From assembly GCF_003201775.1 (NCBI RefSeq), contig NZ_QJJZ01000002.1, positions 124,001 through 188,000 of the forward strand: a stretch of 64,000 nucleotides of DNA. The letters are read 5' to 3'. Each line of letters opens with the position of its first letter. Within the stretch, counting starts at the first letter, position 1. Below, piece by piece: positions 34,535 through 63,263 of the stretch. Source of the DNA: Arenibacter sp. ARW7G5Y1 (GTDB lineage: Bacteria > Bacteroidota > Bacteroidia > Flavobacteriales > Flavobacteriaceae). A program made the translations under genes and the position numbers. The notes beneath the pieces are model-generated. The model saw nothing but the letters and a program-made list of their open reading frames with translations. It had not been told where the DNA came from and did not search any database.

Positions 34535-34606
34535 GGCCTCATAGTTCAACGGATAGAATAGAAGTTTCCTAAACTTTAGATCCAAGTTCGATTCTTGGTG
34601 AGGTCA
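34535..34606 (+). tRNA. tRNA-Arg (anticodon CCT)
   Basis: A 72-nt cloverleaf can be folded by hand. The acceptor stem is GGCCTCA with TGAGGTC (one G-U), with discriminator A at 34606. The D stem is GTTC/GAAT. The anticodon stem GAAGT/ACTTT encloses TTCCTAA with anticodon CCT. The T arm is CCAAG TTCGATT CTTGG. CCA is not encoded. It reads AGG codons. Its 3' end from 34586 is the target of the integrative element that follows and is restored intact by the insertion. Confidence 0.93.
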
Positions 34607-34607
34607 C
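34586..34607 (+). repeat. left attachment-site repeat (inside tRNA-Arg)
   Basis: This 22-bp segment starts GTTCGATTCTTGG and covers part of the T arm, the 3' acceptor strand, the discriminator and one further base. It is identical to 37324-37345, and identity ends abruptly on both sides of the two copies. Confidence 0.85.
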
Positions 34608-34710
34608 TTTTTAACTTGTAAAGTGGGTTAATTTAATACAAATTAAACTGATTTACAGTGTTTTAGATAAATTTTGATATCAAATGGGTTTATTTGATAT
34701 CAAAGGATAG

Positions 34711-34731
34711 AGTTCACAAATCGTCAACATT
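34711..34731 (+). repeat. inner 21-bp direct repeat, left copy
   Basis: This segment starts AGTTCACAAATCG and is identical over 21 bp to 37252-37272 in the same orientation. It lies 103 bp inside the left att repeat. It may be an integrase arm-binding site or the core of an older or nested insertion. Confidence 0.75.
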
Positions 34732-34833
34732 TTTTTCAAATGTTTTCGTAACTTGAAGCAACTTATTTTCAAGGTCTAAGATGAACTATTATTGGTGATT
34801 TGACTTTCGTCTTCAATTAAGTTCAACTTAAAG

Positions 34834-35562
34834 ATGATTGTTATGCGCTCTACCACAACTTTTTCTATCCTATTCTGGATATACGCCAAAAGAACTAAGA
34901 ATAATCTTGCTCCGCTCTATGCAAGAATAACCGTAGATGGGAAAAAGCTCAATATTAGCCTTAAAAGGCGAATCGATATACAGCTTTGGAACCCTCAAAA
35001 ACAACGGATAAGGGGAACAGGCAAAACTGCAAGGGACCTCAATCAGTACTTGGACGAGGTGCATTCTAAACTATTTCAATGTTATCAGGAATTAAGGGCG
35101 GAGGATAGGCGTATTACTCCCCAGATAATCAAAGCCAAATTTGTTGGGGATGTCAAAGTGGTGCATTACACCTTAAAGGATATTATCGAGTATCATAATA
35201 CCAAAATGTTCCACAAACTCCATCACAATACTTCACGGCTATACCTCATTAGCCAAAAGTATATTTTACTTTTTTTAAAAAAAGAATACAAAATGGACAA
35301 CATAGAGTTGTCGGAACTCGACTACCAGTTTATCTTGAATTTTGAGAATTTCCTCCGTGGTCATACTCCTAGGCATTACCAAAAGAAAATAGGAAATAAT
35401 GCAGTAATGAAGCATATACAGCGACTTCGCAGAATGGTTACCCTGGCTTATCAAATTGAATGGAAAAAGGGGAAGGCTACAAAAAGGGGAAGGCTACAGT
35501 TGGATGGTATAAAATTCCAATCAAAACAGAATTATCATAAAGGGAATTTGAAATTATATTGA
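34834..35562 (+). pseudogene. tyrosine-type integrase, truncated: N-terminal domains only
   Basis: The 242 residues start with the arm-binding beta-strand domain usual in Bacteroidota integrases (ILFWIYAKRTKNNLAPLYARITVDGKK, ISLKRRIDIQLWNP). A core-binding SAM-like helical domain (LSELDYQFILNFENFLRG, NNAVMKHIQRLRRMVTLAY) follows. Family members have about 400 residues and end in a catalytic domain with R...HxxR...Y. Here the protein stops at 35562 and no catalytic motif follows in any frame. A 17-bp tandem duplication at 35464-35497 falls just where homology would pass into the linker. The start could also be the Met at 34843. Confidence 0.8.
35464..35497 (+). repeat. 17-bp tandem duplication in the integrase remnant
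   Basis: AAAAAGGGGAAGGCTAC occurs twice in direct succession (35464-35480, 35481-35497). Seventeen is not a multiple of three, so gain or loss of one copy changes the downstream frame. Confidence 0.9.
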
Positions 35563-41828: not shown

Positions 41829-42410
41829 GTGCATTCCATTTTTTTTATTGATCTTTTAAAAAAGGGAGATGAAGAGGCCTATGAAGCTTTGTTTCGCCTT
41901 TATTACGATAAACTATTGCATATATCCAAAGGGTATTTAGGTTCAATGGAGGAAGCAGAGGATATAGTTCAGAATGTATTTTTAAAGGTTTGGGAGCAGA
42001 AAGATAAGCTTGATAAGATCAACAATGTCAATAATTATCTTTATACGATGACCAAAAATGCATGCTTGGACCAAATTAAGCATAGAAAGGTTAAGAATTT
42101 ATATTCCCATAATTATTACCAAGGAAACATGGAGGCACAATGCCGGTTTATAAAAGATGAATCGGCCTCTTTACTTTTGGAAAATGAACTAAATAAAAAG
42201 ATTAGAAACAGTATTGAATTGCTTCCGGAAAAGTGCAAAAATGTCTTTATAAAAAGCCGGGTAGAGGGGCTGAGCAACAGAGAGGTTGCGCAAATACTTA
42301 ATCTTTCCAAACGAACGGTAGACAACCATATCTTCAATGCCTTAAAACATATGAAATTCCATTTAAAGGATTTTTTGCCTTTTTTTTTATTTTTTTCAAT
42401 TTTGGCTTAA
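41829..42410 (+). CDS. ECF sigma factor (FecI-like), module 1
   Basis: The 193-residue protein begins at a GTG, since no ATG is usable before region 2. Region 2 is YEALFRLYYDKLLHISKGYLGSMEEAEDIVQNVFLKVWE. Region 4 is LPEKCKNVFIKSRVEGLSNREVAQILNLSKRTVDNHIFNALK. These are typical of the Bacteroidota sigma factors that control SusCD operons. It should be held by the FecR-like protein encoded 49 bp downstream and released when substrate passes through SusC. A hydrophobic tail (FFLFFSILA) closes the protein. Confidence 0.9.
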   Translation: MHSIFFIDLLKKGDEEAYEALFRLYYDKLLHISKGYLGSMEEAEDIVQNVFLKVWEQKDKLDKINNVNNYLYTMTKNACLDQIKHRKVKNLYSHNYYQGNMEAQCRFIKDESASLLLENELNKKIRNSIELLPEKCKNVFIKSRVEGLSNREVAQILNLSKRTVDNHIFNALKHMKFHLKDFLPFFLFFSILA

Positions 42411-42459: not shown

Positions 42460-43635
42460 GTGGACAAGGAAAAAATAATAAAATATATAAGGGGTACCTC
42501 CACCCCTGCCGAGAATAATGCGGTTAAGGCTTGGATTGCTTCTTCGGTGGAAAACGAAAAACGATTCCATTGGATAAAGGCAGAATATATTGCCTCTACT
42601 TTTGACGAAACCACCAAACGTATAGATCTTGAAAAGGGCATTTTCCAGTATAAGGAAAACATAAGGCAACATATTGAAAATAGGCGTAAAAAGGTTAAGA
42701 TCACAACTTTGAAATACGCTGCTATGTCGGCAGTTGTTTTTGGTCTTGGATGTGTCTTGTACCTTGTGAAGGGAGGGTTGGGTAGCCAGGTTGAAATAAC
42801 CGATAATGCTATAAAGCTAGAATTGGAAAGTGGCAATACCCAAGTTATAAAGGAGGATGGCTCTATTTTGGTACTGGACTCCGAAGGAAGGGAGATTGGA
42901 GCCCAAAAAGGACAAAGCTTGGTGTATAGTAATAAGGTGGTCAAGGAAGTATTGGAGTACAATACGTTAAGGGTCCCTTATGGAAAACGATTTAATCTAC
43001 TCCTTTCGGATGGTACCAGAATTATATTAAATGCGGGTACATCCCTTAAATATCCAATACAATTTATCAAGGGAAGTAAAAGGGAGGTTTTTTTATGTGG
43101 TGAGGCATTTTTCGAAGTTGCCAAAGATTCTTCCCATCCATTTGTGGTGAATACAAAAGGGTTGGATGTCAATGTGCTGGGAACCAGATTCAATGTTTCG
43201 GCCTATCCCGAGGATAGTAAAACCAGTACTGTTTTGGCCGAAGGGTCGGTGAGGGTCCATTTGCGTGGGCGGAAAGAAGGTGCCGAAAAACCAATATTAT
43301 TGACACCTGCCCATATGGCTGCCTGGGAAAAGTCCCAAAATAAAATTAAGGTGGATCCGGTGGATGTAAATGAACATATTGCCTGGGTTAGTGGAAGGTT
43401 GGTCTTTAAGAGTAAACCTTTTTCCGAAATCCTCAAAGTACTCGAAAGACATTATAACGTCTCCATAATAAACAATTATACCTTTTTAAACGACCAAAAA
43501 TTCCTGGCAAAGTTTGATTCCGAAACCATAGAGGAGGTGCTGAGGTCCTTTCAGACCAGTGAAGATTTTTCATTTGAGATAAATGGAAACAAAATAGAAA
43601 TCAATCAACCCTTAAAACATGAGCCCATGACATAG
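42460..43635 (+). CDS. FecR-like anti-sigma factor, module 1
   Basis: The 391-residue protein begins at GTG. A cytoplasmic N-terminal part (YIRGTSTPAENNAVKAWI) is followed by one membrane helix (about residues 85-105, YAAMSAVVFGLGCVLYLV). The FecR domain has VPYGKRFNLLLSDGTRIILNAGT, LCGEAFFEVAKDSSHPFVV, VLGTRFNVSAYPED and VLAEGSVRV. A C-terminal secretin-like DUF4974 region (FSEILKVLERHYNVSI) receives the signal from the STN domain of SusC. It sits between its sigma factor and its susC. Confidence 0.92.
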   Translation: MDKEKIIKYIRGTSTPAENNAVKAWIASSVENEKRFHWIKAEYIASTFDETTKRIDLEKGIFQYKENIRQHIENRRKKVKITTLKYAAMSAVVFGLGCVLYLVKGGLGSQVEITDNAIKLELESGNTQVIKEDGSILVLDSEGREIGAQKGQSLVYSNKVVKEVLEYNTLRVPYGKRFNLLLSDGTRIILNAGTSLKYPIQFIKGSKREVFLCGEAFFEVAKDSSHPFVVNTKGLDVNVLGTRFNVSAYPEDSKTSTVLAEGSVRVHLRGRKEGAEKPILLTPAHMAAWEKSQNKIKVDPVDVNEHIAWVSGRLVFKSKPFSEILKVLERHYNVSIINNYTFLNDQKFLAKFDSETIEEVLRSFQTSEDFSFEINGNKIEINQPLKHEPMT

Positions 43636-43669
43636 AAAGCAATTTAAATTTCTTAAGAATTCGCTTTAT

Positions 43670-43705
43670 AAAAAAATCGGAATATGCTACGAACATATCC
43701 CGATT
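43670..43705 (-). terminator. antisense-strand terminator in the fecR-susC gap, module 1
   Basis: Read on the - strand, AATCGGGATATG and CATATTCCGATT form a 12-bp stem with one G-U pair and a 7-nt loop, followed by a T-run. Read on the + (sense) strand the same position is an A-C mismatch and no T-run follows. The structure is therefore optimised for a transcript running antisense to susC. Confidence 0.65.
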
Positions 43706-43744
43706 GGGTAAGGCGATCAATTAAATTAATTAACCACCAAGAAA
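43670..43744 (-). ncRNA. predicted cis-antisense RNA to the susC leader, module 1
   Basis: A -7-like box TACTTTTA (7 of 8 matches) lies on the - strand at 43757-43750; its first T is opposite the A of the susC ATG. The terminator hairpin begins 44 nt further on. The predicted RNA is about 75 nt and covers the susC leader up to near the start codon. No -33 box was found. The layout resembles the antisense RNAs described between anti-sigma and susC genes in Bacteroides (DonS type). Confidence 0.4.
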
Positions 43745-43756
43745 CACATTAAAAGT

Positions 43757-46700
43757 ATGAAAAAAATACTTAATATTTGGGGGCCTATATGGTATGGCCT
43801 TCCCAAGTATAATTTAAAAATGAAACTAACTACCTTATTTTTAATTATCACTTTCTTTAGGATCGAGGCCAATACGTATTCCCAGAATACAAAAATCTCC
43901 TTAGATCTTGATGCTGTGCATGTTATAGATGTGCTAGAGGAGATAGAGGCGCTGAGCGAATTCAAAGTGCTGGCTAACGAAAACCTATTGGACAAGCATC
44001 GTTTGGTGTCCGCACATTATAAGGAAAAAAGAATAGACCGAATACTACGGGACCTGTTTTCAGGGACCCAAGTTACTTTTACCGTTGTTGGCAAACAAAT
44101 AGTTCTCCGCAAAAAGGAGGAAAAGGATAATCCTGGAATCAAGGTAATTCCATCTGCTCCCATTAGGGCCCCAATGTTACAACAAAAGATAGGGGGTACT
44201 ATTACGGATGATCAGGGAACACCCTTGGCCGGGGTCAATATTTTAAAAGAGGGGACATTGATAGGTACCCAGAGCGATTTTGATGGCCAATATTTGATTT
44301 TGGCTACCAAGGGGGATCGTTTAACTTTTTCCTATTTAGGAATGCTATCCAAAACCATAACGGTGGGAGATTCGGATACAATTGATGTTGTGATGTTGGA
44401 AGATTCGGCCAAATTGGACGAAGTGGTCCTAGTAGGTTTTGGAACTCAGAAAAAATCCAGTGTAGTGGGAGCCGTTGAAACCATTTCCCCCTCGGAACTT
44501 AGGGTTACTTCAAGCAACCTTACCACAGCTCTTGCAGGAAGGGTTTCCGGTCTTATTTCTTATCAGAGAAGTGGAGAGCCCGGGGCGGATAATGCTGAAT
44601 TTTTTGTGAGAGGTGTAACTTCTTTCGGTTATAAAAAAGATCCCCTAATATTAATTGATGGGGTAGAATTAACCCTGGACGACCTTTCTAGATTACAAAC
44701 CGATGATATTGCCAGTTTTTCCATTTTAAAAGATGCTACTGCCACCGCCATATATGGTGCAAGGGGTGCAAACGGGATTATTTTGGTAACTACCAAGAGC
44801 GGTGTAACGGGCAAGGTAAAGATATCTGTTAGATTTGAAAATTCGTTTTCAAGCCCAACAAGAAAAGTGGATTTTGCAGACCCTATTACCTATATGCAAT
44901 TGCATAATGAGGCGGTTAGAACAAGAAACCCAATAGGTCCACTTCCATATAGCGAAAGTAAGATTGCAAACACCATGGCCGGACTCAATCCAAATGTATA
45001 TCCAGCGATCAATTGGCAGGAAGAATTGTTCCAGGACTTTACGAACAACCAAAAAATGAACCTTAATTTGAGTGGTGGAGGTAGTGCTGTCCGCTACTAC
45101 TTGGCAAGCTCCTATGGTGTGGACAATGGTCTCTTGAAGGTGGATAAGCGCAATAATTTTAATAACAATATTAAGCTAAAACGCCTAACACTGAGATCTA
45201 ACATTAATATAGACCTTACCAAGACCACAGAGGCCATTGTTAGGTTCAATGGTACATTCGATGACTATATAGGGCCAATAGACGGTGGAGCCGAAATCTA
45301 TAAAAAGGCCTTGAGAACAAATCCTGTATTATATCCGAAATATTATGAGCCAGATGAGGCAAATGCTTCTACTGGTCATATTTTATTTGGAAATAGTGCA
45401 GGGAGCAGTAGTACCGGGGCCAGATATCTAAATCCTTATGCCGATCTGGTAAAAGGCTATCGTGAGAATAGTAAAACCTTGCTGTTGTCCCAGGTAGAGA
45501 TCAAGCAAAATTTTGATATGATTACCCAAGGCCTAAAGGCCAGAATATTGATGAATACGACCAGGGCATCAGATTTTGATGTTATAAGACAGTATAATCC
45601 ATATTTTTATGAAATAGGCCGCTATGATAAGGACACCGATACCTATACCCTTAATTCCTTAAATGAGGAAACCGGTACAGAATATTTGGATTTTAATGAA
45701 AATACCCCAAATATTTCAACCTCGTTTTATTTAGAGGGTGCAATTGATTACAGCCGTACATTTAATGAAAAACACGAGGTAACCGGGCTTGTGGTCTATA
45801 CCAAGAGATCGTCCTTGAGAAATAATACAGGGAGTTTCCAAAAGTCATTACCCTATAGGAATTTGGGGGTTTCCTCTAGACTTTCCTATGGTTATGACAG
45901 TAAATATTTTGGGGAATTCAATTTTGGTTATAATGGTTCCGAACGTTTTTCCAATAATAACCGGTTCGGATTCTTTCCTTCTGCCGGTTTAAGCTGGGCT
46001 GTGTCCGAGGAATCCTTTTTTGAGCCTTTGCTCTCAGTAGTATCCAGGTTAAAATTAAGAGCTAGTTACGGAATTGTCGGTAACGATGCCATAGGTGATC
46101 AAGATGATAGATTTTTCTACCTATCGCAGGTAAATCTTGACGACGACGGTCGTGGGTATCGCTTCGGGAAGAATTTTGACTATTATCGCAGGGGGGTAAG
46201 TATTGGTCGCTATGCCAATGATAGAATTACCTGGGAAAGGGCGTACAAGTCCAATTTGGGTCTGGAGATCAACTTTTTAAACGATAGGGTGAAAGTATTG
46301 GCCGATGTCTTTAGGGAGAAAAGGGACAACATTTTAATGAACAGGGCTTTTATTCCTCCTAGTATAGGACTTGAATCGGATGTAAGGGCCAATGTAGGGG
46401 AGGCACAAAGTGAAGGAATCGATTTTTCCATAGACTATAACAACAGTTTTAATAAGGACCTGTGGCTTTCGGGAAGGGTCAATTTCACCTATGCAAGAGG
46501 TGAATTCAAGGTTTTTGAAGAACCTAATTATGTAGATGCACCTTGGCGTTCCCATCCGGGACAGGCAATTAACCAACAATATGGATTAATAGCCGAACGC
46601 CTTTTTGTAGACGAGGAGGAAGTAGCCAATTCCCCCCAGCAATTTGGTATTTATGGTGCCGGGGATATCAAATATCACGATTTGAACGGTGATGGCCTAA

Positions 46701-47251
46701 TAGATGATAATGATAAGGCCCCAATTGGCTTTCCTACAACACCGGAAATTGTTTATGGATTTGGTTTTTCTATGGGATACAAAAATTTTGATCTATCCGG
46801 CTTTTTCCAGGGATCCGCCAGATCCTCTTTCTGGGTAGACCCTTACGCAACCGCTCCATTTATAGATAATCGTGATGCCGGTTATGAAAACGTTATTGAT
46901 AGTAATGCCCTTTTGCAAATATATGCCGATAGCCATTGGTCGGAAGCCAATCAAGATGTATATGCCCTATGGCCAAGGTTATCAACGACCGTAAATGAAA
47001 ACAACAGTCAGACCAGTACCTGGTTTATGAGAAATGGAGCCTTTTTAAGGTTTAAGGAAGTAGAACTCGGTTTTTCATTTCCTGACAGTTTGATCGATAA
47101 ATGGCACCTTACAAAGTTTAGGATGTACCTGACCGGGACCAACCTTCTTTCCATTAGCAAATTTAAACTGTGGGATCCTGAGATGGGCGGTAATGGTTTG
47201 GGGTATCCTGTACAGAGGGTATTTAATTTTGGGATGCAAATAACATTATAA
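43757..47251 (+). CDS. SusC/RagA-like TonB-dependent receptor, module 1
   Basis: The 1164-residue outer-membrane protein starts with a signal peptide in an extended leader (cleavage near ANTYSQN). An STN signalling domain (about 45-115) follows, then a carboxypeptidase-regulatory-like domain (IGGTITDDQGTPLAGVNIL). The TonB plug runs from DEVVLVGFGTQKK through ILKDATATAIYGARGANGII, and the 22-strand barrel ends FNFGMQITL. It imports an oligosaccharide together with the SusD encoded 12 bp downstream. The STN domain and the upstream sigma/FecR pair show trans-envelope regulation. Its substrate is unknown, since no CAZyme is adjacent. Confidence 0.94.
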   Translation: MKKILNIWGPIWYGLPKYNLKMKLTTLFLIITFFRIEANTYSQNTKISLDLDAVHVIDVLEEIEALSEFKVLANENLLDKHRLVSAHYKEKRIDRILRDLFSGTQVTFTVVGKQIVLRKKEEKDNPGIKVIPSAPIRAPMLQQKIGGTITDDQGTPLAGVNILKEGTLIGTQSDFDGQYLILATKGDRLTFSYLGMLSKTITVGDSDTIDVVMLEDSAKLDEVVLVGFGTQKKSSVVGAVETISPSELRVTSSNLTTALAGRVSGLISYQRSGEPGADNAEFFVRGVTSFGYKKDPLILIDGVELTLDDLSRLQTDDIASFSILKDATATAIYGARGANGIILVTTKSGVTGKVKISVRFENSFSSPTRKVDFADPITYMQLHNEAVRTRNPIGPLPYSESKIANTMAGLNPNVYPAINWQEELFQDFTNNQKMNLNLSGGGSAVRYYLASSYGVDNGLLKVDKRNNFNNNIKLKRLTLRSNINIDLTKTTEAIVRFNGTFDDYIGPIDGGAEIYKKALRTNPVLYPKYYEPDEANASTGHILFGNSAGSSSTGARYLNPYADLVKGYRENSKTLLLSQVEIKQNFDMITQGLKARILMNTTRASDFDVIRQYNPYFYEIGRYDKDTDTYTLNSLNEETGTEYLDFNENTPNISTSFYLEGAIDYSRTFNEKHEVTGLVVYTKRSSLRNNTGSFQKSLPYRNLGVSSRLSYGYDSKYFGEFNFGYNGSERFSNNNRFGFFPSAGLSWAVSEESFFEPLLSVVSRLKLRASYGIVGNDAIGDQDDRFFYLSQVNLDDDGRGYRFGKNFDYYRRGVSIGRYANDRITWERAYKSNLGLEINFLNDRVKVLADVFREKRDNILMNRAFIPPSIGLESDVRANVGEAQSEGIDFSIDYNNSFNKDLWLSGRVNFTYARGEFKVFEEPNYVDAPWRSHPGQAINQQYGLIAERLFVDEEEVANSPQQFGIYGAGDIKYHDLNGDGLIDDNDKAPIGFPTTPEIVYGFGFSMGYKNFDLSGFFQGSARSSFWVDPYATAPFIDNRDAGYENVIDSNALLQIYADSHWSEANQDVYALWPRLSTTVNENNSQTSTWFMRNGAFLRFKEVELGFSFPDSLIDKWHLTKFRMYLTGTNLLSISKFKLWDPEMGGNGLGYPVQRVFNFGMQITL

Positions 47252-57945: not shown

Positions 57946-60900
57946 TTAAAATTTAGCATTTAGTCCCAATGTGAAAGTTGTTGAGGTAAACCAAGTATTT
58001 CTACGGTCTATTCCTGGAGCCAATACATTTCCTCCGTCGGCATATCTAACTTCTGGATCCACACCGGTATAATCGGTAATTGTAAACAAATTTTGACCTG
58101 TAGCGTATAATTTTAATCCCTTCAAAGCCTTAAAGTCTGAAACATCAAAATTATAGCCAATATCTAAATTTTGTAATCTAAAGAACGACGCATCTTCTAC
58201 ATGATAGTCTGAATAAATGGCTCTATCGGTCAACTCGGGCAGGTAGTATTTGGTTTTAGTTACATTATATGCCAAAGACACTGATTGAGCTTCATAAAAT
58301 GCTCTAAACGTATTGATCAAATCATGTCCAAAAGACCCTCTGAAGAACGCATTCATATCAAATCTGCCGATTTTAAGTGAATTATTAAATCCGATTTCGT
58401 AATCCGGCAGACCATTTCCAATAATCATTTCATCTTTGGTGTCTATTGTTCCATCACCGTTTTGATCCTTAAACCTCCAAGTTCCGTCATCATTGACACC
58501 GTCAAATTGCCATCCAAAAAACTGGCCAATTTCTGCGCCTTCTTCTACTTGGATCAAATTAACATTCTGGCCAGGAGCACCCATAATGGCCAATTTTTGA
58601 ACCCCATTATCACCAAAAGTGGCATCGTCTCCCGAAAGTGATATTAATTCAGTTTTATAGGTTGAAAAGGTGAAGGTAGGTGTATAGGAAAAAGTCTTTC
58701 CTAAATCTAGATTGTAGGCAAGGGTTACCTCTATTCCGGCGTTTTTAATTTCACCTACATTCAACCACTTATCTTGATACAGGTTAGGTGGAACTGAAAC
58801 AGGAAGATTAAAAATTCCATCAGTCGTTCTTCTATCGTAGTAGTCTATAGAACCGGAAAGACTGTCGTCAAAAAAGGCAAAGTCCAAACCAAAATCCAAT
58901 TCCTCCTTCTTTTCCCATTTTAAATCCGGATTAGGGTTGCTAGAAGGCCGAAAGGCTGGTATAAATTCCCCATTATAGAAGAAATTATTTCCAGAACTGA
59001 ATCTTAATTGGGAAAGATAATTGCTCGAGGGCACAGCACCGGTGATACCATAACTTCCCCTAAGTTTTAATTGGGTTATTTTGTCACTATCCAATAGCTG
59101 TGAAAAATCTATACCAGCACCAACCCCGGGGAAATTTCCCCATTTGTTATTTTCTCCAAATTTGGTAGACCCTTCTCTTCGTATGCTCGCATTAAGGAAA
59201 AATGTATCCAGATAATTCAGACTCACTCTTGCAAAACTGCCGATCAATTTGGAAGCACCCTTATAACTTCCCACATTCCCCAGTCCATTGGTAAAATCTT
59301 GAGAAAGTCCGAGGTTGTTGTACAATAGCTCATCGGTAATAAAATCTCCTCCATTTGCATTGAAGCTTTCATTTGTAAATTCTTGATACGAATAACCGGC
59401 AACGGCATCCAGACCAAAATCCCCCAAATCTTTATTGTAGGACAAGGTAGTTTCAAAAAGCTGGGTCTCAATATCATTTATATTCCTTGAAGCACTTCCG
59501 TTTGAGGAAAATCCATTCAAATAACTATCACTCCTGTAGTAGGAACCATCTAGCCAGCTAATATCTTCTCGGGAGTATCGGGCACCAATCTTCAAACCGT
59601 CAATCAACTTAAAATCCGCATCTACGTTAATTAGACTGGCTTTGCGTTTTTGATCGTTATTGTTTTGTTCAAGAACGGCTACAGGATTGTAATAGCCGAA
59701 CAAAATTTCCTGCCAATATCCGCCAAACCTTTCAGCTTCAGGCCCTCCATGCACAGGGGCTGTAGGATTGTAGGTAGTGGCAAATTGAAATGCCGCAGCA
59801 TTACCTTTTTGCTCTTTTCTATTTTGACTTGTTAGGTTTAAAGACACCCTTAACCTATCATCAATAGCTCTGTGGGTAATATTGACCCTACCTATAAGTT
59901 GTTGAAAACCAGTATTAAGTGCAATGCCTTCAGCATCCCTGTAATTTACAGAAGCCCTATAGGTAGTTCCTCCGTTACCTCCACTAAAGGAAAGGTTATG
60001 TACATGGGTTGCAGCAGATCTGGTAATTTCATCGAACCAATCCGTCTCACTGCCATGGTCTGTACCACCAACGGCTATAAATTCGGAGGGGGTCATTACA
60101 GAGGGCTTGCGAGCCACATTTTCCAGGCTTACATAAGTATTGTATTCCAGAACGGATTGACCCGCCTTCCCACTCTTCGTGGTAACCAATACTACACCAC
60201 TGGAGCCCCGTGTGCCATAAATGGCTGCAGCAGAGCCATCTTTAAGGACATCCATAGATTCAATATCATTTGGGTCGATAGTTAATAGCGAAACCCCTGG
60301 AACACCATCAACAACGATTAATGGACCTGTATTGGCCCCTAAGGTGGACAATCCTCTTAACCTGATCGAAAAACCGCCATTTGGATCGGATCCCGGATTA
60401 GTAATGCTTAAACCTGCCACTTTACCTTGTAGCAATTGTGCCGGATTGGTAATATTGCCTGTGTTAAAGTCCTCTGCCTTAATACTTGTTACGGCACTGG
60501 TTATTTCCTTTTTCTTTTGTGTACCGTATCCCACAACAACTACTTCATTTAATTTGGAAGCGTCAGGTAACAGTGCTACTTCAATATTGGTGAGCCCATT
60601 GAGCGGAATTTCTTTGGAGGTATACCCGAGATAGGAAAACACTAGTATAGCATTCCCATCGGTAACGGATATGGAAAAGTTTCCATCAAAATCGGTCTGT
60701 GTTCCCTTGGTGGTTCCTTTTTCCAGTATATTGGCACCTGGCAATGGCAAACCATTTTCGTCCAATACGGAACCTGTAACCAAATGTCCTTGTTTTAAGG
60801 GTTTGGTTATTGCACTCAATGCAAACTCCGATTTTGAAGGTTGTATTTCCTTTTTAATTATTATGTGCTTGCCATATATCTCATAAGTTACTAGATCGTT

Positions 60901-61206
60901 ATTGAAAATCTTATCCAAAATGGGCTCAATACGTAAATTTTTCACCTTTAAGGTTATTAATTTATCGAGTTGCACGTCCTCATTTTTATAAAAGAATTTA
61001 AACTCGGTCTTACTTTCAATCTCCGAGATAACGTCTGCCAAAGTTGACAGGGAAAGGTCAAGACTAACCTTCACGTTTTGGGAATATCCGGAATTTGCCT
61101 TTAATTGAAAGAGGGTGACAATAAGAAAAAGGAAAGTTAATTTCATTTTCAAATCAATTTTAGGAACGATTTTGCACAACCATTCCACGGTGTTTGGTTT
61201 TTTCAT
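57946..61206 (-). CDS. SusC/RagA-like TonB-dependent receptor, module 2
   Basis: The 1086-residue outer-membrane protein has a signal peptide in an extended leader (cleavage near SGYSQN). The STN domain (about 45-115, VSLDLSLSTLADVISEIE) is followed by the regulatory-like domain (VTGSVLDENGLPLPGANIL), the plug (NEVVVVGYGTQKKK, DVLKDGSAAAIYGTRGSSGV), and the barrel ending FTLGLNAKF. The STN domain shows that it signals to the FecR encoded upstream. The start codon carries on its opposite strand a perfect -7 box of a predicted antisense RNA. Confidence 0.94.
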   Translation of the reverse strand: MKKPNTVEWLCKIVPKIDLKMKLTFLFLIVTLFQLKANSGYSQNVKVSLDLSLSTLADVISEIESKTEFKFFYKNEDVQLDKLITLKVKNLRIEPILDKIFNNDLVTYEIYGKHIIIKKEIQPSKSEFALSAITKPLKQGHLVTGSVLDENGLPLPGANILEKGTTKGTQTDFDGNFSISVTDGNAILVFSYLGYTSKEIPLNGLTNIEVALLPDASKLNEVVVVGYGTQKKKEITSAVTSIKAEDFNTGNITNPAQLLQGKVAGLSITNPGSDPNGGFSIRLRGLSTLGANTGPLIVVDGVPGVSLLTIDPNDIESMDVLKDGSAAAIYGTRGSSGVVLVTTKSGKAGQSVLEYNTYVSLENVARKPSVMTPSEFIAVGGTDHGSETDWFDEITRSAATHVHNLSFSGGNGGTTYRASVNYRDAEGIALNTGFQQLIGRVNITHRAIDDRLRVSLNLTSQNRKEQKGNAAAFQFATTYNPTAPVHGGPEAERFGGYWQEILFGYYNPVAVLEQNNNDQKRKASLINVDADFKLIDGLKIGARYSREDISWLDGSYYRSDSYLNGFSSNGSASRNINDIETQLFETTLSYNKDLGDFGLDAVAGYSYQEFTNESFNANGGDFITDELLYNNLGLSQDFTNGLGNVGSYKGASKLIGSFARVSLNYLDTFFLNASIRREGSTKFGENNKWGNFPGVGAGIDFSQLLDSDKITQLKLRGSYGITGAVPSSNYLSQLRFSSGNNFFYNGEFIPAFRPSSNPNPDLKWEKKEELDFGLDFAFFDDSLSGSIDYYDRRTTDGIFNLPVSVPPNLYQDKWLNVGEIKNAGIEVTLAYNLDLGKTFSYTPTFTFSTYKTELISLSGDDATFGDNGVQKLAIMGAPGQNVNLIQVEEGAEIGQFFGWQFDGVNDDGTWRFKDQNGDGTIDTKDEMIIGNGLPDYEIGFNNSLKIGRFDMNAFFRGSFGHDLINTFRAFYEAQSVSLAYNVTKTKYYLPELTDRAIYSDYHVEDASFFRLQNLDIGYNFDVSDFKALKGLKLYATGQNLFTITDYTGVDPEVRYADGGNVLAPGIDRRNTWFTSTTFTLGLNAKF

Positions 61207-61213
61207 AAATTTG
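61206..61213 (+). promoter_or_regulatory. -7 box on the strand antisense to susC, module 2
   Basis: TAAATTTG is a perfect TAnnTTTG match. Its first T is opposite the A of the susC ATG. No clear -33 box is visible at the standard distance. Confidence 0.4.
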
Positions 61214-61219
61214 AATGAT

Positions 61220-61296
61220 TTTTAAGTTTGTTACAGACAGCTGTAAAATCAGTTTTGAAATCGGGGAATGCAGCAACATTTCCCGATTTTTTTTTT
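61220..61296 (+). ncRNA. predicted cis-antisense RNA to the susC leader, module 2
   Basis: The RNA would start about 7 nt after the -7 box at 61206-61213 and end in the T-run of the hairpin at 61258-61289, so it is about 77 nt long. Box-to-hairpin distance is 44 nt, exactly as in module 1. The RNA would be complementary to the susC mRNA leader and could block its translation or end its transcription. Confidence 0.45.
61258..61296 (+). terminator. antisense-strand terminator in the fecR-susC gap, module 2
   Basis: On the + strand, AAATCGGGGAATG and CATTTCCCGATTT form a 13-bp stem with one G-U pair and a 6-nt loop, followed by a ten-T run that begins within the stem. On the - strand, which is the susC sense strand, the same position is an A-C mismatch and an A-run precedes instead. 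The hairpin thus ends a + strand transcript. Confidence 0.75.
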
Positions 61297-61355: not shown

Positions 61356-62531
61356 TTAGTTGAATTCTGTGGGTTCCTGGGTAGGCTCAATAATTATTTC
61401 ACCATTCTTCTTTAAATAGTCAAATTGGCTATTCTTTTTAAAAGTGTCCAATATCTGATCAATTGTTTCCGAATCAAAGGTTCCAGTATATCTGGTACGG
61501 TTCAAATCCAAATAATTGTTTTGGATTTTGATATTAAAATGCCTTTCCAATTCTTTGATGATATTCTCGAAACAATCATTTACAAAGTATAGTTTACCTG
61601 TTGTCCAGGCAATATGTTTCTGAACATTTACCTCCTGTACTATGATATCATCTTCTTGAAATACCGCTTGGTGTTTGGGAGGGAGAACAACATTTTTATT
61701 CTCATCAAAAATTTCCGAGGGTCTGTATACGGCAACACTTCCCTCTACCAATACGGCGGAGGTATTGCTTTCGTTTTTATAACTGGAAACATTAAACTTG
61801 GTCCCCAAGACACGTACGTTCATTTTTTCGGTATGTACAATAAACGGTTGGGAGGCATTTTTCTTTACGCTGAACATGGCTTCCCCATCTAAAAATACCT
61901 CCCTACTTTTTGGATCGGTAAACAACCTGGGATATTTGAATTTTGTGCCGGCATTGAGATAAACAATTGTACCGTCCGCCAGTTCCACCTCAAATCGTTT
62001 TCCGTAGGGCACGGTAAGTTGATTGTAGACCAACTCGGTCCCTTCAATCTCTTTGTTATCCTCATATTTAATTTTGCCGTACTCTTGGCTAACCACTTTT
62101 TCGCCTTCCTTGTTGGTAATGGCCGTGCGTTTATTTTCCTCTAATATCTGAAGACTTCCGTCCTCCAATTCCAAGGTAATCTCTGTAGCACTTTCTATTT
62201 GGGCATTGGACCTAAACGAAGCGTCAACGTTTAAAATATGGTAAAGAAGAAAAGAGGTGCCCACTATTAAGAGCAGGACGGCAGCATATTTAAATATACT
62301 ACGGCTCTTTCCAAAAGTCCATTTATTATTTATGGTAGTTTTCTTAAGAATACTGTCATAAGCTTTTTCTGAATCAATTGTACGCAATACGTAATCCAAT
62401 TCTTGATTGGCTCGCACTGTGGCCTTAAATTCCTCTCGATTTTTTTTTGATTCCTTAAGCCAGTCCCGCAAGATTTCGGTTTCCTCTTCTGAGAGAGCAC
62501 TAGTTAAATATTTAGCAATAAGTGTTTTCAC
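61356..62531 (-). CDS. FecR-like anti-sigma factor, module 2
   Basis: The 391-residue protein has an N-terminal cytoplasmic part (YLTSALSEEETEILRDWL) and one membrane helix (about residues 80-100, YAAVLLLIVGTSFLLYHIL). The FecR domain has VPYGKRFEVELADGTIVYLNAGT, FLDGEAMFSVKKNASQPFIV and VLGTKFNVSSYKN. A DUF4974-like end is FENIIKELERHFNIKI. It has the same length as the module 1 FecR and is clearly paralogous. It is transcribed away from its sigma gene, with a 141-bp divergent gap. It probably controls the sigma factor at 62673. Confidence 0.92.
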   Translation of the reverse strand: MKTLIAKYLTSALSEEETEILRDWLKESKKNREEFKATVRANQELDYVLRTIDSEKAYDSILKKTTINNKWTFGKSRSIFKYAAVLLLIVGTSFLLYHILNVDASFRSNAQIESATEITLELEDGSLQILEENKRTAITNKEGEKVVSQEYGKIKYEDNKEIEGTELVYNQLTVPYGKRFEVELADGTIVYLNAGTKFKYPRLFTDPKSREVFLDGEAMFSVKKNASQPFIVHTEKMNVRVLGTKFNVSSYKNESNTSAVLVEGSVAVYRPSEIFDENKNVVLPPKHQAVFQEDDIIVQEVNVQKHIAWTTGKLYFVNDCFENIIKELERHFNIKIQNNYLDLNRTRYTGTFDSETIDQILDTFKKNSQFDYLKKNGEIIIEPTQEPTEFN

Positions 62532-62672: not shown

Positions 62673-63263
62673 ATGGAGGAAAAAATCTTGTGGAAGCGCA
62701 TCCAAAAAAGTGATAATAATGCTGTAAAAGAGCTTTTCGATTTGCATTATAGACCACTTTGTTCTTACGCTTTTCAGTTTACAGGCCTCATGGAGGATGC
62801 GGAAGATATTGTTCAGAACGAATTTATAAAGCTCTGGACAAGAAGATCTGAACTACGGATACATACTTCTCTCAAGGCTTATTTGTACAAATCTGTTTAC
62901 AACGCCTTTTTGCATCAAACCCGGAAAGTGAAAAAACAAGATGACTTCCTGGTTGCCTTAAAGTATGAAGCAATGTCCTATAGGGTTGATGAGGATGACA
63001 CAGTTTTTTTGGAGAAAATAGAAAGGATAAAAGGATTATTGGATCTTTTGCCGGATAAATGCAGGGAAATTTTGCTGCTTAGTAAAAGGGATGGATATCG
63101 AAATAGGGAAATCGCGGATAAATTGGGGATTTCCATCAAAACGGTGGAATCTCAGATAAGTATCGCTTTCAAAAAAATAAGAAATGGTTTTCTTGATAAG
63201 AATCTGCTTTTGTTTATCGTGTCAAAAAAAATCGGAAGGTGTATTGGCCGGTCTTGGCGGTAA
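62673..63263 (+). CDS. ECF sigma factor (FecI-like), module 2
   Basis: The 196-residue protein has region 2 (VKELFDLHYRPLCSYAFQFTGLMEDAEDIVQNEFIKLWT) and region 4 (LLPDKCREILLLSKRDGYRNREIADKLGISIKTVESQISIAFKKIR). It is divergent from fecR, unlike module 1 where sigma and fecR form one operon. It probably drives expression of the fecR or susC operon of module 2. The tail after region 4 (LLLFIVSKKIGRCIGRSWR) is longer than usual. The T-rich 141-bp gap to fecR must hold both promoters. Confidence 0.9.
   Translation: MEEKILWKRIQKSDNNAVKELFDLHYRPLCSYAFQFTGLMEDAEDIVQNEFIKLWTRRSELRIHTSLKAYLYKSVYNAFLHQTRKVKKQDDFLVALKYEAMSYRVDEDDTVFLEKIERIKGLLDLLPDKCREILLLSKRDGYRNREIADKLGISIKTVESQISIAFKKIRNGFLDKNLLLFIVSKKIGRCIGRSWR

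Follow-up and report, generated by a model that had tools for sequence, protein, structure and literature searches.

Evidence for a conserved cis-antisense RNA opposite the start of susC in FecR-linked SusCD operons of Flavobacteriaceae and Marinilabiliales

In this study, we establish the conservation, structure, strand, position and promoter box of a predicted antisense RNA encoded opposite the start of susC in FecR-linked SusCD operons. Its position, the covariation of its stem, the polarity of its G-U pairs, a −7 box and a 5′ hairpin that folds mainly in the antisense direction together strongly support a real, conserved cis-antisense RNA of ~76–79 nt in Flavobacteriaceae and Marinilabiliales. 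The initial annotation of two SusCD modules in the window (the whole 64,000-nt stretch of DNA analysed here) had proposed a conserved antisense RNA of about 75 nt, and the same five features back one of ~75–80 nt. Judged from sequence, such an RNA is very probably transcribed and, following the precedent of DonS, it would probably lower susC output by pairing with the susC leader.

According to domain profiles run over the 64,000-nt window, both modules are ECF-sigma/FecR/SusC/SusD units (Table 1). In module 2, fecR-susCD and the ECF sigma gene are divergently arranged, whereas all genes of module 1 share one strand. Both SusC proteins of the window (43757–43820; 61206–61144) start with MKK, followed after ~20 residues by a second Met that opens a signal-peptide-like stretch; the antisense −7 box is on the first ATG. 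Elsewhere in the window (34535–35562), a tRNA gene is followed by an ORF with tyrosine-integrase N-terminal domains (Arm-DNA-bind_5, Phage_int_SAM_5), an arrangement that resembles an integration site.

Table 1. Positions of the antisense elements and of the neighbouring genes, in window coordinates
Feature	Position	Strand	Basis or remark
−7-like box TAAATTTG, module 2 antisense RNA	61206..61213	+	first base opposite A of susC ATG
Predicted antisense RNA, module 2, ~79 nt	61218..61296	+	start inferred from box at −12 to −5, end in T-run
5′ hairpin, module 2 antisense RNA	61216..61251	+	fold prediction; family-wide 5′ folding
Terminator hairpin, module 2, 14 pairs	61257..61290	+	fold; covariation
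T-run, module 2, ten T	61287..61296	+	
−7-like box TACTTTTA, module 1 antisense RNA	43750..43757	−	first base opposite A of susC ATG
Predicted antisense RNA, module 1, ~76 nt	43670..43745	−	predicted ends
5′ hairpin, module 1 antisense RNA	43712..43738	−	fold prediction
Terminator hairpin, module 1, 14 pairs	43675..43705	−	fold
T-run, module 1, seven T	43670..43676	−	
susC, module 2	57946..61206	−	CarbopepD_reg_2, Plug and barrel matches; STN below cut-off
fecR anti-sigma factor, module 2	61356..62531	−	
ECF sigma factor, module 2	62673..63263	+	divergent from module 2 fecR
susC, module 1	43757..47251	+	STN, CarbopepD_reg_2 and Plug matches
fecR anti-sigma factor, module 1	42460..43635	+	
ECF sigma factor, module 1	41829..42410	+	

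On the strand opposite susC, both fecR-susC gaps present the same order of elements: an 8-base box, exactly 44 nt, a 14-pair hairpin and a T-run. The hairpin with ten Ts that had been described for module 2, and the same arrangement in module 1, were re-found at 61257–61296 (+) and 43705–43670 (−). The −7-like box claimed to start opposite the A of the susC ATG, 44 nt from the hairpin, is exact in both modules, and both folds show the one stem position said to form a G-U pair in the antisense RNA but an A-C mismatch in the sense RNA. The antisense strands of the two copies fold at −27.0 kcal/mol (z −5.5) and −27.7 kcal/mol (z −4.3), and the sense strands at −19.6 kcal/mol (z −4.6) and −20.9 kcal/mol (z −4.3); for each of the four folds, 0 of 200 shuffles were as good. 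Since the sense folds also beat all shuffles, the two window copies alone leave the strand undecided. In module 2, the two outermost pairs of the 5′ hairpin would be lost if the RNA started at 61218.

The arrangement recurs within the same genome. The FecR_C profile PF16344 gave 26 matches, of which the 22 strongest (L001–L022) were used and the four weakest (L023–L026) left out; for L006, a later ATG was set by hand in place of the start chosen by the script. By script, a best antisense hairpin of at least 11 pairs, with at least 4 G-C pairs and a T-run, was found in 20 of these 22 FecR-linked gaps. The L021 gap has no such hairpin, and in the L007 gap a hairpin is seen by eye only and its T-run is broken, which speaks against the antisense-RNA reading there. 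At L005, T-runs flank the hairpin on either side, and the gaps of L003 and L004 are identical. One hairpin type is common to 14 copies, which form an alignment of 112 columns; 11/11 stem pairs are kept in all 14, with two-sided changes in 7 pairs. The covariance model built on them, R1, finds 15 copies in the genome at E <1e-5, namely the 14 and L070. The window modules are two of the 15, matched at 61204–61296 (contig 185204–185296) for module 2 and at 43667–43759 (contig 167667–167759) for module 1. Among the FecR-less SusC leaders of the genome, which served as a control, the script found an antisense terminator in 0/13 and a sense terminator in 1/13. Among the named genomes encountered, the closest is Arenibacter algicola (L295, 86.7% over 2506 nt; L358, 85.1% over 2917 nt).

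Some gaps of this genome hold other structures. Different hairpins, several of them long-looped, occupy the same place in six gaps (L001, L003, L005, L006, L007 and L009). R1 matches L003, L004 and L005 weakly (E about 0.8–0.9), and L001, L006, L007 and L009 are unmatched at E 1. Two further SusC genes, L034 and L048, have by eye a variant poly-A and hairpin before the start, with a sense A-C mismatch.

Across genomes, and with the own genome counted each time, R1 matches occur in 40 of 149 genomes of the own family (E 0.01), in 41 of 247 genomes of the order of Ancylomarina (E 0.05) and in 23 of 395 genomes of the phylum, all of the latter in the same family or class. In the NCBI taxonomy, Ancylomarina and Sunxiuqinia belong to Marinilabiliales, class Bacteroidia. 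We examined 159 R1 matches, comprising all 143 of the family scan (15 of them from the own genome) and 16 of 33 further ones from the phylum scan, with a SusC N-terminal HMM and a FecR HMM from the own genome (cut-off 1e-5); 14 of the own loci also trained R1 and both HMMs. An ATG occupies model positions 1–3 in 159/159, and an ORF of at least 180 aa begins exactly at that ATG in 155/159. The comparison of related fecR-susC gaps that had been suggested as a check on conservation came out in favour of it, with SusC at the start in 156/159 (all but L070, L193 and L119) and FecR upstream in 154/159 (L086 and L197 missing as well). Because the training copies of R1 include both CAT and the box, the 159 matches are biased towards them. 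Among 20 loci from the scan of the Ancylomarina order, three of which (L377, L379, L386) are identical to L119–L121 of the phylum scan, SusC starts exactly at the ATG in 18.

A second set of loci was chosen without CAT or box. We scanned 84,980 named genomes for an exact pattern made up of the stem, the loop and five Ts and obtained 107 stretches, of which 80 were examined. The SusC HMM matches behind the hairpin in 78/80; in the other two, L282 and L309, the contig ends within the gene, with a similar start visible. FecR lies before the hairpin in 78/80. The distance from hairpin to ATG is 42–63 nt in 77 of 78 loci, and 7 nt in the remaining one. Hosts include Arenibacter, Maribacter, Zobellia, Flagellimonas and Sinomicrobium and, in Marinilabiliales, Ancylomarina, Sunxiuqinia and Prolixibacteraceae. 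Since the hairpin lies before susC in 78 of the 80 loci, the other two being contig-cut, it is not a general terminator, and the context tests on the 159 copies and the 80 loci place its occurrence beyond chance.

We also surveyed gaps chosen by FecR: 20 of the 22 own gaps (the duplicate L004 was removed by hand and L021 failed the SusC test), 21 of 29 loci phylum-wide, and 20 of 30 loci from the order of Ancylomarina. L388 was dropped by hand, and the other drop-outs had no SusC-like ORF or 20-nt gap. With a loop limit of 10, which overlooks long-loop copies such as L001, L007 and L009, the antisense strand reached the terminator threshold in 13/20 own gaps, 8/20 gaps of the Ancylomarina order and 1/21 gaps phylum-wide, so that in FecR-SusC gaps of the phylum at large the arrangement is mostly not seen at this threshold. 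The sense strand reached it in 0/61 gaps (0/20 own), as did 0/610 shuffles in two-base blocks.

The stem covaries. In a structure alignment (A3) of 100 loci chosen from the 159 R1 matches, 99.5% of 1099 stem cells are paired, versus 89.1% after shuffling. The covariance check proposed for the hairpin gave two-sided changes in 11/11 stem pairs, with 109 such cells versus 18.7 in shuffles and at most 25 when slid. In the same alignment, which was fitted to the antisense structure, the wobbles are 113 G-U and 0 A-C cells of 1099, and this polarity, read within a structure-fitted alignment, points to the antisense RNA as the RNA under selection. When G-U and A-C were scored alike over the inner ten pairs of all 159 loci, loop-closing pairs included, 246 G-U stood against 42 A-C; the polarity of the hairpin is thus kept in homologous loci together with its spacing to the ATG, as the initial annotation had expected. 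A count of 49 G-U versus 3 A-C in 19 own stems is biased, because these stems were found with G-U allowed.

The region 5′ of the terminator also folds preferentially in the antisense strand. Over the 100 loci, its mean fold z against mononucleotide shuffles is −2.59 for antisense and −0.73 for sense, and z falls below −1 in 95/100 loci for antisense and in 31/100 for sense. A 5′ helix (helix 1), read by eye from the alignment of 100 loci, has 78.2% of its cells paired, two-sided changes in 7/8 pairs, and 144 G-U and 22 A-C cells. The two-helix structure lies above all 500 shuffles on all five measures.

The box opposite the start codon resembles a primary promoter element. Excerpts of PMC9723704 give a sigma-A box TAnnTTTG at −12 to −5 for Flavobacterium psychrophilum (F. 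psychrophilum), and TAAATTTG fits it. With the box spacing of the same excerpts, the antisense transcript would begin 12 nt upstream of the susC ATG; in the 80 hairpin-only loci, the antisense strand has G at that position in 50 loci, T in 21, C in 5 and A in 4. From this predicted start to the fifth T, the predicted length is 63–85 nt in the 80 loci; counted to the end of the T-run, the window copies would measure 76 and 79 nt. TAnnTTT[GA] stands opposite the ATG in 75 of the 80 hairpin-only loci (56 with TTTG) and in 139/159 R1 matches, a model-biased figure, versus 0/30 other window genes and 3/13 FecR-less SusC genes. In the gaps chosen by FecR, the box is present in 18/20 own loci, 12/20 of the Ancylomarina order and 7/21 phylum-wide. 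The A-rich region around the translation start is overlapped by the box, whose conservation may in part reflect a role in translation; the control genes make a translation signal insufficient as an explanation. The −33 boxes whose absence had been noted from the start are indeed missing, none being enriched at the susC codons where they are expected.

These observations would probably find their joint explanation in a cis-antisense RNA gene at each site that silences susC as part of a two-state switch, although we infer transcription, RNA ends, repression and switching alike. A primary-sigma promoter with its −7 box on the susC start codon would initiate a transcript ~12 nt before the ATG and directed away from susC. 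The RNA would consist of the 5′ hairpin and the conserved terminator hairpin with a U-tail, opposite the susC 5′ UTR (about −12 to −90). As long as FecR holds the ECF sigma factor, the antisense RNA would be made and would silence leaky susC mRNA by blocking its translation and/or promoting its decay. Release of the ECF sigma factor would let strong transcription in the sense direction cross the antisense promoter and turn that promoter off, a step which the geometry makes plausible. Profile searches of the own genome at E 0.001 gave no match to Hfq and none to RRM_1, the domain of RbpB. This favours a cis mechanism that works without Hfq or RRM_1 chaperones, and it suits a fully complementary cis RNA.

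Three other readings were weighed. The RNA might be made and its main action might still be transcriptional interference at the DNA by colliding polymerases, with the RNA as a by-product. The antisense box sits exactly on the susC start, facing the sense operon, as this would predict, and some action of the RNA itself would be compatible with it; a by-product, however, needs neither two covarying hairpins nor a sequence-conserved stem, and we consider this account improbable. It is very unlikely that the hairpin is an insulator terminator only, which stops stray antisense transcription from susC before fecR and involves no dedicated RNA. A terminator directed away from susC would serve that purpose, and antisense transcription is common, as illustrated by F. 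psychrophilum, for which excerpts of PMC9723704 report 287 regions that overlap a total of 281 CDSs on their antisense strand. An insulator, however, needs no fixed distance to the ATG (42–63 nt in 77/78), no conserved 5′ hairpin and no −7 box (75/80), and none of the 13 FecR-less SusC leaders has such a terminator. Least credible is action of the hairpin in the sense susC mRNA as a 5′-UTR structure, attenuator or stabiliser beside an accidental poly-A, since the better-than-shuffled sense folds of both window copies and the double T-run of L005 are set against G-U polarity in the antisense strand (113 versus 0 in the fitted alignment, 246 versus 42 scored alike), 5′ folding mainly in antisense, and a sense terminator threshold reached in 0/20 own gaps.

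DonS and DonS-like PUL antisense RNAs of Bacteroides were reportedly described by Cao et al. in 2016. As far as excerpts of PMC7366714 go, RNAs of this type measure 78–128 nt and lie opposite susC; the predicted RNA of 76–79 nt is likewise a short RNA opposite the susC homologue of a PUL. In contrast to DonS, which belongs to Bacteroides, it occurs in Flavobacteriaceae and Marinilabiliales (Ancylomarina, Sunxiuqinia, Prolixibacteraceae), and it has a sequence-conserved terminator common to paralogous loci (20/22 own FecR-linked gaps). It may be called DonS-like by layout, which does not imply common descent. The DonS mechanism is called unknown in excerpts of PMC11697453. For Bacteroides thetaiotaomicron (B. 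thetaiotaomicron), excerpts of PMC10994844 count 32 PUL antisense RNAs and describe some that are anti-correlated and some that are positively correlated with their PUL; the positively correlated ones are a point against repression.

The FopS and GibS sRNAs of B. thetaiotaomicron, as portrayed in excerpts of PMC11697453, resemble the present RNA in being multicopy small RNAs with a terminator hairpin, and FopS RNAs are translational repressors that bind close to the start codons of susC genes. According to the same excerpts, FopS acts in trans through an unpaired 5′ stretch and is countered by RbpB, whereas the gene of the present RNA lies opposite its target, the RNA forms a hairpin in its 5′ part, and the genome has no RRM_1 match. 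On these three grounds (cis position, 5′ hairpin, no RRM_1 match), we did not assign it to FopS. In Rfam 15, the window copies have no match above the gathering cut-off, and a search with 20 further loci of the family gave none at E 1. The DUF3800-I RNA (RF02969) scores 27.1 bits at module 2 (cut-off 44.2), best in the terminator part, and has no match at module 1. Rfam membership was rejected, since the matches are sub-threshold only, and the one to DUF3800-I falls mainly on the terminator and is seen neither at module 1 nor in the 20 family loci.

Antisense RNAs opposite susC are thus already known as a kind from Bacteroides. Among the matches listed in open-licence PMC papers, there is no earlier flavobacterial report of such RNAs; the nearest paper, PMC9723704, goes no further in its excerpts than to offer its list of antisense RNAs as a possible basis for work of this kind. 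Gut Bacteroides are the known home of PUL antisense RNAs, and the switch looks far more widespread. If the same device operates in marine flavobacteria and in Marinilabiliales at their FecR-linked SusCD operons, the control of glycan uptake would have an old and general layer that can be studied in genera such as Zobellia, Maribacter and Arenibacter. Since the promoter box sits on the start codon of the target, a switch by mutual exclusion is directly testable, and the alignment yields a covariance model for annotation, predicted RNA ends and sites to mutate.

Two copies stand apart. L070 (positions 1501–1593, own genome, C26) and L193 (positions 901–993, another genome, G129 C13) have RNA blocks alike in 80 of 98 bases and flanks alike in 59% and 54%, the ends of the blocks being set by shared letters. 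In both, the susC start behind the RNA block is decayed, with no intact susC at the ATG; another susC follows a few hundred nt on, and no FecR is seen nearby. Because the terminator stems are alike, each RNA could pair with other susC leaders. Predicted duplexes with paralogous leaders average −46.7 kcal/mol, versus −21.5 kcal/mol for shuffled RNAs, and the cis duplex −132.4 kcal/mol; as the stem is shared, strong paralogous duplexes are inevitable. That the paralogous copies, 15 of them strong, form a network in addition to acting in cis, with an active PUL damping or relieving others, is a doubtful proposal, which draws on two facts only, the conservation of L070 and L193 and the paralogous duplex energies. 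If it were true, orphans like these may be its trans-acting members.

A short motif was also seen in the neighbourhood of the hairpin. GCC[TA]ATGA occurs in the 260 nt before the hairpin in 39/159 loci, for example L008, L014, L016 and L019, versus 1.4 in shuffles. It lies in the tail of fecR and the fecR-susC gap, and often reads Pro-Met-X-stop, not always in the frame of fecR.
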